Positions 38,786 through 38,940 of a stretch of 64,000 nucleotides of DNA are shown here, piece after piece. The notes under the pieces are model-generated. The model saw only the letters and a program-made list of their open reading frames with translations. It made no database searches and was not told the DNA's origin. The position numbers and the translations under genes are program-made. Position 1 is the first letter of the stretch. Every line of letters begins with the position of its first letter. The stretch is taken from positions 806,001 to 870,000 of the forward strand of contig NZ_CP124620.1 in NCBI RefSeq assembly GCF_030128875.1, read 5' to 3'. Origin of the DNA: Stenotrophomonas sp. BIO128-Bstrain (GTDB lineage: Bacteria; Pseudomonadota; Gammaproteobacteria; Xanthomonadales; Xanthomonadaceae).

Positions 38786-38887
38786 ATGAAACTCACCGAC
38801 TTCCAGCACGACACCAGCGCCGCCCGTATGGCTACGGGCATGACGTCGCGTGCCCGCCGACCGGAACCCCACATTTTCGCTGGGTAA
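38786..38887 (+). CDS. Arginine operon leader peptide (33 aa)
   Basis: A 33-codon ORF beginning MKLTDFQHDTSAAR and ending HIFAG. It holds four Arg codons (positions 14, 22, 24 and 25); three of them form the cluster SRARR, encoded CGT-GCC-CGC-CGA, a few bases before the first control hairpin. The stop lies inside the segment that can form the antiterminator. No known function as a protein; its translation is proposed to sense charged tRNA(Arg). No strong Shine-Dalgarno is visible. It precedes argF' by 168 bases. Confidence 0.7.
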   Translation: MKLTDFQHDTSAARMATGMTSRARRPEPHIFAG

Positions 38888-38922
38888 CCGGAGCTTCGTG
38901 CTGTCTGTTCGGAAAACCCAGC
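38861..38922 (+). promoter_or_regulatory. Attenuator pause and antiterminator structures
   Basis: Region 1 (38861-38870, CCGGAACCCC) can pair with region 2 (38882-38891, GGGTAACCGG). Region 2, as GCTGGGT at 38879-38885 plus CCG at 38888-38890, can instead pair with region 3, CGG at 38910-38912 plus ACCCAGC at 38916-38922. Region 3 is also the left arm of the terminator, so the two structures exclude each other. A ribosome stalled on the Arg codons at 38849-38860 would cover region 1 and favour the antiterminator. Confidence 0.7.
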
Positions 38923-38940
38923 CCCCGCGCTGGGTTTTTT
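38913..38940 (+). terminator. Leader terminator of the arginine operon
   Basis: AAAACCCAGC (38913-38922) pairs with GCTGGGTTTT (38929-38938) around a 6-base loop and ends in a six-T run. It lies between the leader peptide and argF', so it can only be regulatory. Confidence 0.88.

Follow-up and report, generated by a model that had tools for sequence, protein, structure and literature searches.

Leader-peptide attenuators are familiar from the trp, his, leu, ilv, thr and phe operons, and in fungi the arginine attenuator peptide, encoded by a conserved upstream open reading frame (uORF), precedes an arginine biosynthetic gene. The amino-acid limitation model of attenuation is treated in PMC1183508. 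Here we compared with these systems a leader in a 64,000 nt stretch of DNA from Stenotrophomonas sp. BIO128-Bstrain (contig NZ_CP124620.1, positions 806,001 to 870,000 of the forward strand; hereafter the window), in which a short open reading frame (ORF) lies directly upstream of a nine-gene arg-pro cluster beginning with argF′. Judged by comparison of related loci, this leader is very probably a ribosome-mediated transcription attenuator through which the charging of a single arginine tRNA controls how strongly the arginine operon is expressed. Like trp- and his-type attenuators, it combines end-product codons in the leader ORF with a competing antiterminator and intrinsic terminator, its stop codon stands at the 5′ strand of the antiterminator (segment 2), and the spacing would leave segment 2 free under a stalled ribosome. 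Unlike that type, it carries arginine as the amino acid, keeps a block of 14 peptide residues, uses R-A-R-R codons of one isoacceptor and, in Xanthomonas-type loci, starts about 2 nt from the 5′ end of the RNA. The likeness to the fungal peptide is that of a conserved uORF peptide before an arg gene, whereas the fungal system is one of eukaryotic translational control.

The nearest tested relative in kind is the speF leader of Salmonella, in which pausing at two Arg codons of orf34 acts via RNA structure and decay, and Rho terminates transcription when the leader is untranslated (PMC6386406). As described in passages of that paper, orf34 resembles the window leader as a 34-codon uORF with Arg codons at which pausing alters leader RNA folding, and in its conserved peptide, but it serves an ornithine decarboxylase rather than biosynthesis and works through Rho and RNase G, with no intrinsic terminator. 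The Pfam domain of the speF leader named there, PF10940, did not match the window leader in the Pfam search. The attenuator leader products rnTrpL and peTrpL of Sinorhizobium have been seen as separate molecules, like the Xoo5 RNA considered below; according to passages of PMC7298713 that system concerns tryptophan and has reported trans functions, whereas none is known for Xoo5. We found no description of an arginine-biosynthesis attenuator in these bacteria in the open-access literature of PubMed Central, a scope outside which most subscription papers lie, and the passages of PMC2965389 and PMC8632094 contain no mention of one.

An earlier note, which had proposed an arginine attenuator from the sequence of the window alone, knew of no description of it. 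This stands for the arginine attenuator as such, but the RNA itself was already in Rfam as a small RNA (sRNA). The family RF02242, ‘Xanthomonadaceae sRNA Xoo5’, gave the only match above the gathering score within the 64 kb, aligning model positions 1-124 to 38784-38907 with 115.1 bits (cut-off 50). The sRNA-Xoo5 of Xanthomonas was reported in 2011 with a 5′ end from rapid amplification of cDNA ends (RACE), a 124-nt clone and Northern blots, on which bands of about 130 and 100 nt appeared early in growth and only the short one later; seven of the authors' eight sRNAs were deleted without obvious phenotype (PMC3039613). The words ‘arginine’, ‘ornithine’, ‘leader’ and ‘attenuator’ are absent from the main text of that paper. 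RF02242 likewise has 124 positions, and its position 1 is likely the RACE end. In ten loci (seven Xanthomonas-type, the window and two others) this position lies 2 nt before the leader ATG, segment 2 runs from nt 96 and the T run of the terminator ends at nt 156-159. The Rfam family and the window leader are the same sequence, but the family is filed as an sRNA gene and its model, like the match in the window, ends before the terminator. RF02242 should probably be a cis-regulatory leader rather than an sRNA gene.

Base-by-base inspection of 38786-38887 agreed with the 33-codon ORF containing SRARR that the earlier note had described; its translation is MKLTDFQHDTSAARMATGMTSRARRPEPHIFAG, followed by the stop codon. 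SRARR is followed by GCTGGGT, ACCCAGC and GCTGGGTTTTTT, and these by the arg-pro cluster. The proposed pairing of GCTGGGT (38879-38885) with ACCCAGC (38916-38922) proved exact in its coordinates, and the last T of GCTGGGT (38885) is the first base of the TAA stop codon (38885-38887). The 10-bp terminator and its six-T run were located again at the same place, with the arms AAAACCCAGC (38913-38922) and GCTGGGTTTT (38929-38938), the latter overlapping the T run (38935-38940).

We searched the RF02242 profile in 299 genomes of the order Xanthomonadales, whose families are numbered f1 to f12 here, and in 14 control genomes. It matched 101 of the 299, 57 of them above the cut-off, and none of the 14. 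Of 104 matches listed, 90 were read; 88 lay upstream of argF′, all with an SRARR leader, and the leader and its Arg codons are conserved in relatives as the earlier note had expected, with R-A-R-R in 88/88 of these loci. The pattern MTSRARRP occurred in 248 of 398 genomes of the order and its reversed control in one; by hand count it was found in 120 of 129 genomes of f1, the family to which the window belongs, two of f2 and three of f3, the remaining 123 being f12, of which one genome was seen without the pattern. In two families of the order almost every genome carries the leader. In a class-wide sample of 369 genomes, five matched the pattern, all f1 or f12. Seven f2 and f3 loci read upstream of argF′ all had MTSRARR, five without the following Pro. 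Among the named argF′ loci, taken as the best 80 of 526 (Stenotrophomonas, Xanthomonas, Pseudoxanthomonas, Lysobacter and a few others), 79 had MTSRARR or MASRARR, 78 of those with CGA last, and the remaining one, Xanthomonas prunicola, had ITSRARR. The attenuator claimed for Stenotrophomonas is therefore present there but not confined to it, being spread over the order. An extra MTSRARRP match in G341 (L181) was rejected as a second leader copy; it is the N terminus of a 440-aa ORF. One contig titled Bacillus subtilis (JAHREJ010000037.1, L266) carried an argF′ 98% identical to the Stenotrophomonas-type gene of the window and probably belongs to a mislabelled or contaminated assembly.

For comparison of the leaders, a FastTree tree of 135 distinct loci was built from the first 450 nt of argF′. 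These loci were found via the motif or RF02242, so that complete loss of the motif is invisible among them, and the set itself was selected by R-A-R-R, which does not apply to the 88 RF02242 loci at argF′. The peptide A-x-M-A-x-G-M-T-S-R-A-R-R-P was kept as amino acids in four families while most wobble bases varied; the residues before this block and after RRP were variable. In its 11 most conserved codons, a count that omits the three variable ones (-5, -4 and -2 from the Met of MTSRARR), we counted 8 changes at codon positions 1 and 2 versus 135 at position 3; for all 14 codons the numbers were 48 versus 188. On the same tree argF′ underwent 4.7, 2.9 and 16.7 changes per codon at positions 1, 2 and 3. 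These counts indicate that the leader is translated and that the amino-acid constraint on its core residues exceeds that on the enzyme. The wobble base was nearly fixed in three codons, TCG (4 changes), CGA (1) and CCG (2) (window 38846-38863), and neighboring codons varied. A pure RNA constraint behind MTSRARR is ruled out by the varying wobble bases except at these three, where RNA pairing and codon choice cannot be told apart as the cause. Since hungry-codon attenuation predicts conserved Arg codons only and not a whole block, this pattern suggests that the nascent chain itself helps to stall the ribosome. Attenuation at Arg codons, as first proposed, thus accounts for their conservation but not for that of the peptide.

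The terminator of the window folds at -16.7 kcal/mol (z-score -3.4), the antiterminator hairpin (38879-38922) at -17.9 kcal/mol with a z-score of only -1.7, and the whole region 38840-38942 has a z-score of -1.7; as such single-sequence energies are modest, the case rests on comparison between loci. A terminator, defined as a stem of at least 6 with a T run, was present in 134 of the 135 motif-group loci versus 3.7% of dinucleotide-shuffled upstream regions (132 in a separate run on 134 distinct regions). An antiterminator, defined as at least 7 bp with the 5′ arm of the terminator, was present in 128 of 134 versus 4% when the upstream 75 nt were shuffled. Segment 2 is a copy of segment 4, the 3′ arm of the terminator: GCTGGGT/ACCCAGC/GCTGGGT was found in 69 and GCCGGGT/ACCCGGC/GCCGGGT in 36 of the 134 loci. 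Of 131 loci, 125 had a Watson-Crick pair between position 3 of segment 2 and segment 3 (at most 89 in shuffles), five a G-U pair and one a mismatch. Segment 2 was unrecognisable in three of 134; L119 and L147 lacked the usual form, and GGGTTTC/GAAGCCC took its place in two loci. In eight of 113 distinct leaders (L066, L068, L071, L073, L075, L077, L079 and L092) the stop codon comes earlier and segment 2 was kept as CTGGG just after it, outside the ORF, and therefore as RNA and not as Ala-Gly.

The codons themselves point to one tRNA. The first two Arg codons of R-A-R-R were CGT or CGC in 270 of 270 cases (135 loci), and the last was CGA in 134 loci and CGC in one, although CGA makes up 1.8% of the Arg codons of argF′; two f3 loci outside the set end the Arg run in CGT. 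All 405 leader Arg codons of the motif group were thus CGT, CGC or CGA, compared with 87% in argF′. In families f7, f8 and f9, whose counts take in some chance ORFs, these three codons made up 91/101, 81/86 and 75/95 of the leader Arg codons against 62, 58 and 70% in argF′; CGA was raised in the leaders of f7 (33/101 vs 7%) and f9 (27/95 vs 7.5%) but not in those of f8 (16/86 vs 15.5%) or f4 (0/19). By the inosine decoding rule, CGT, CGC and CGA are read by the tRNA with anticodon ACG. The window genome encodes tRNA-Arg with anticodon ACG three times and with CCG, CCT and TCT once each, and no tRNA-Arg with anticodon TCG was found in it. Because ACG is present and TCG is not, the leader Arg codons would depend on the inosine tRNA, and the leader seems to watch the single isoacceptor tRNA-Arg(ACG).

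The distances between these elements were also kept. From the start of the CGA codon to segment 2 there were 21 nt in 121 of 132 motif loci, and in 123 of 132 the end of the stop codon was 9 nt beyond the start of segment 2. Where segment 2 could be recognised in f4, f6, f7 and f9, most loci had Arg codons about 18, 21 or 24 nt before it despite the differing peptides, and in f8 they lay 11 to 27 nt before it. Taking the generally known size of a ribosome footprint, we read the fixed spacing as what is required if a stalled ribosome is to leave segment 2 exposed and one that finishes the leader is to cover it.

The sister families f4 to f10 provided 79 argF′ loci (26 of f7, 28 of f9, 18 of f8, three of f4, two of f6 and one each of f10 and f5). 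Their leader peptides lack MTSRARR and seem unrelated between families, for example MTAHVHFQTQLQALGSHAALRRRRRSSQRRAG, MMNRPANKDIRRLRRPRTGNRAG and MKNTFKQQNYIQATASVASVAVVRRARRRMKHAGV. One f7 locus with too little upstream sequence was left out of the Arg count; in the other 78, at least four R in seven residues occurred in 48, compared with 0.6-8% of shuffles for the three large families. The cluster was found in 18/18 f8 loci (shuffles 0.6%, GC 36%), 13/25 of f7 (4.2%), 11/28 of f9 (7.9%), 3/3 of f4, 2/2 of f6 and 1/1 of f10. Of six residues tested against shuffles, Arg was raised most. Terminators were present in 63 of the 79 loci (f7 24/26, f8 18/18, f9 15/28, f4 3/3, f6 2/2, f10 1/1, f5 0/1), and antiterminators of at least 7 bp in f7 16/24, f8 7/18, f9 3/15, f4 3/3, f6 2/2 and f10 1/1. 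Their sequences differed: GCTGGGC/GCCCAGC in f10, and GCCAGGT/ACCTGGC or GCCGGG/CCCGGC in one genus of f8. In the other f8 genus (g23, L246-L253) a CTTTGG leader region paired in 8/8 loci with CCAAAG in the terminator loop and 3′ arm, a pairing of 7-10 bp seen without a shuffle control. In many f7 loci GGCTGGGT is read as Gly-Trp-Val and not as Ala-Gly-stop. These versions look like separate solutions to one design. Thirteen of the 28 f9 loci (L210-L215, L218, L220, L222, L223, L227, L228 and L231) showed no terminator by scan and mostly no convincing Arg leader.

The arginine repressor ArgR was searched as family PF01316 in the same 299 and 14 genomes. It was found in nine of the 14 controls and in eight of the 299, all f11, and not in the window genome (G000) nor in 290 others of the 299. 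The argF of f11 is of a distant type, with 38-40% identity, and the four loci of this family that were read have ArgR near argF and no Arg leader of this kind. On this small f11 sample, repressor and attenuator look mutually exclusive; part of f9 has neither. The attenuator is a likely replacement of ArgR in these bacteria.

Taken together, comparison supports the ribosome-mediated arginine attenuation that had been proposed, through conservation, the terminator and antiterminator and the spacing. RNA polymerase would start about 2 nt before the leader ATG, as mapped by others for the Xanthomonas homologue and inferred here, with a ribosome following it and translating the leader. Under a shortage of charged tRNA-Arg(ACG), this ribosome would stall with one of the codons CGT, CGC and CGA in its A site and its leading edge would stay short of segment 2, to judge from the 21-nt spacing and the usual footprint. 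Segment 2 would then be free to pair with segment 3, no terminator would form, and argF′ and the genes behind it would be transcribed. When arginine is ample, the ribosome would run to the stop codon on the end of segment 2 and cover it; segments 3 and 4 would then form the terminator, releasing the ‘Xoo5 sRNA’ or a precursor of it as a short RNA of about 157 nt. Where the nascent chain is A-x-M-A-x-G-M-T-S-R-A-R-R-P, in four families, it would probably strengthen or tune the stall at CGA-CCG. Without ArgR, the attenuator may be the main specific control of the arginine pathway.

Several observations weigh against this interpretation. The stems had been expected to covary, and terminator and antiterminator do change together; however, the three-way change of segments 2, 3 and 4 in the MTSRARR group maps to one shared branch of the tree, so that covariation inside the group is essentially one deep coordinated event and not many, the independent versions being those of other families. 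The weakest part is the protector stem, poorly supported and with no covariation support. The pairing of 38861-38870 with 38882-38891 claimed for it does fold in the window, but only imperfectly (CCGG:CCGG and CCC:GGG around an internal loop); in folds of three subsets, the long protector hairpin appeared only in the closest relatives and was not found in the f12 subset. By Arg density alone the group of the window would not stand out, as none of 134 MTSRARR loci reach four R in seven residues versus 6.9% of shuffles; their mean maximum of R is 2.93 versus 1.17 in shuffles. In several groups Ala and Ser likewise exceeded shuffles, by less than Arg did, and some chance ORFs enter the codon counts of f7 to f9. 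Family f9 is mixed, with a terminator in 15/28 and an Arg cluster in 11/28, and the sole f5 locus has neither. Nine of 129 f1 genomes lack the exact pattern by hand count; five of those were read and have a variant leader, SRARRL or MASRARR. Weak RF02242 matches, all below the cut-off, lie away from argF′, namely L088 and L094 and, by coordinates, at least three more (G316, G108 and a second in G270); L088 and L094 have neither argF′ nor the motif and were rejected as second leader copies. The predicted terminated RNA of about 157 nt is longer than the Xoo5 clone and bands, and processing must be assumed. Strict conservation of non-Arg residues is not expected for a pure hungry-codon device.

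The last point invites readings in which the peptide itself is sensed. A hybrid sensor is possible but doubtful: the conserved nascent peptide in the exit tunnel and a poorly decoded CGA codon, likewise conserved, would together hold the ribosome at R-A-R-R-P, with codon and chain read together. What is read would, equally tentatively, be the supply of arginine, either through the charging of tRNA-Arg(ACG) or through arginine or an intermediate of the pathway binding in the tunnel. CGA-CCG is an inhibitory codon pair in yeast, which we leave as an idea. If true, such a hybrid would set a bacterial equivalent of the fungal arginine attenuator peptide onto a terminator switch of the trp type, and sister families would still have the form that relies on codons alone.

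A true arrest peptide is unlikely. In that reading the nascent chain would respond in the tunnel to arginine or a metabolite of the pathway, and the terminator would be set by where the ribosome arrests, not by tRNA charging. Such a peptide would explain the codon counts of the block, 8 versus 135 and 48 versus 188, set against 7.6 versus 16.7 per codon in argF′, as well as the rare CGA that stands last in 134 of 135 loci, with the block forming the 12-13 residues behind it, which in a ribosome stalled at this codon lie closest to the peptidyl transferase centre. However, f4 and f6 to f10 (f9 in part) have the same device with unrelated peptides and Arg runs only, and because of this the peptide sequence appears not to be needed for the basic switch. 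The window leader also had no match in Pfam (E up to 10) or NCBIfam (E up to 0.01), searches in which HMMER filters may hide weak ones.

It is improbable, and clearly more so, that Xoo5 is a trans-acting small RNA or the source of a trans-acting peptide, with a secondary cis effect on argF′, as with rnTrpL/peTrpL of Sinorhizobium. Against the stable RNA on Northern blots, the Rfam family of its own and the precedent of peTrpL stand the 88 of 90 matches read that lie directly upstream of argF′ with an Arg-coding leader, terminator and antiterminator, and the codon-wise variation, which points to selection on translation. Xoo5 was among the sRNAs unaffected by hfq deletion, and passages of PMC3039613 name no trans target of it. 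Chance, meaning an ordinary terminator of the upstream gene next to a meaningless ORF, has next to no probability: a + strand gene does end at 38695, and the terminator hairpin alone would not count because 3 kb hold four such sites versus 2.1 expected, but codon-wise conservation, the recurrence of terminator and matching antiterminator (128/134) beyond shuffles and the fixed spacing refute it.

The attenuator features and the genes of the cluster are collected in Table 1.

Table 1. Features of the leader and of the downstream gene cluster in the window.
Feature	Position	Strand	Evidence or remark
Likely promoter: TTGCAC 38749-38754, 17 nt, AAAGAT 38772-38777, TGC before AAAGAT	38749..38777	+	inference only
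Likely transcript 5′ end, 2 nt before leader ATG	38784	+	aligned with RF02242 model position 1
Leader ORF, 33 aa, near-leaderless	38786..38887	+	translation, codon-wise substitution pattern
Conserved peptide block A-R-M-A-T-G-M-T-S-R-A-R-R-P	38822..38863	+	codon-wise changes, 135-locus tree
Regulatory Arg codons CGT 38849, (GCC), CGC 38855, CGA 38858	38849..38860	+	codon counts, 135 loci
Segment 1, protector, imperfect	38861..38870	+	fold of window; fold in close relatives only
Segment 2, GCTGGGT, antiterminator 5′ strand, ending in stop codon	38879..38885	+	comparison of loci
Segment 3, AAAACCCAGC, common to antiterminator and terminator	38913..38922	+	comparison, fold
Segment 4 and T run, terminator 3′ strand, GCTGGGTTTT + TT	38929..38940	+	terminator scan, fold
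argF′, N-acetylornithine carbamoyltransferase, first cluster gene	39056..40066	+	NF003384, 642 bits
argG, argininosuccinate synthase	40198..41391	+	NF003385, 833 bits
argE, acetylornithine deacetylase	41550..42638	+	NF006439
argB-type acetylglutamate kinase	42643..44037	+	NF003386; start uncertain, family match from residue 26
GNAT-like acetyltransferase	44004..44642	+	weak match only, to GNAT-containing model
argC (presumed)	44639..45592	+	named from sequence MSTKIFTVGIVGARGHTGAEL...
argH, argininosuccinate lyase	45655..46962	+	TIGR00838
proB	47306..48454	+	profile search
proA	48570..49832	+	start chosen inside ORF beginning 48486

The promoter is placed as likely from its position relative to the RACE-derived 5′ end and from recurring boxes: a TTGC motif and a second box some 9 nt upstream of the ATG return in the third of f1 loci that was inspected. 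A consensus promoter scan made no call at 38749-38777. The palindrome TGCACCCGCCCCGGGTGCA at 38750-38768 was considered as an operator and rejected; in the same third of loci it is not kept even inside the genus. The gene at 44639-45592 is presumably argC, a name given to it from its sequence. All nine arg-pro genes lie on one strand, and given this order most of the arginine pathway could be under one switch. GTAG-type short palindromic repeats (GTAGAGCCACGCC... and relatives) were seen at 40081-40150, 41450, 48473, 49837 and 26797-26906, that is, between argF′ and argG, after argG and around proA, and in three copies spaced 49 nt apart at 26797-26895; they resemble the SMAG/REP repeats of Stenotrophomonas.

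As far as sequence and comparison go, the arginine attenuator is real. New here are arginine as the amino acid, a leader ORF that is nearly leaderless, a different reading of Xoo5, an attenuator that likely replaces ArgR, and a peptide conserved beyond the needs of the classical model. As far as the open-access literature shows, this would be the first described ribosome-mediated attenuator for bacterial arginine biosynthesis, and an RNA that has been catalogued as an sRNA since 2011 would gain a function. The leaders form a natural series, relying on codons only at one end and having a frozen peptide at the other, in which the step from hungry-codon sensing to peptide-assisted stalling becomes testable. 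For a large group of bacteria that includes pathogens and plant-associated members, the attenuator offers an answer to how arginine may be regulated without ArgR.
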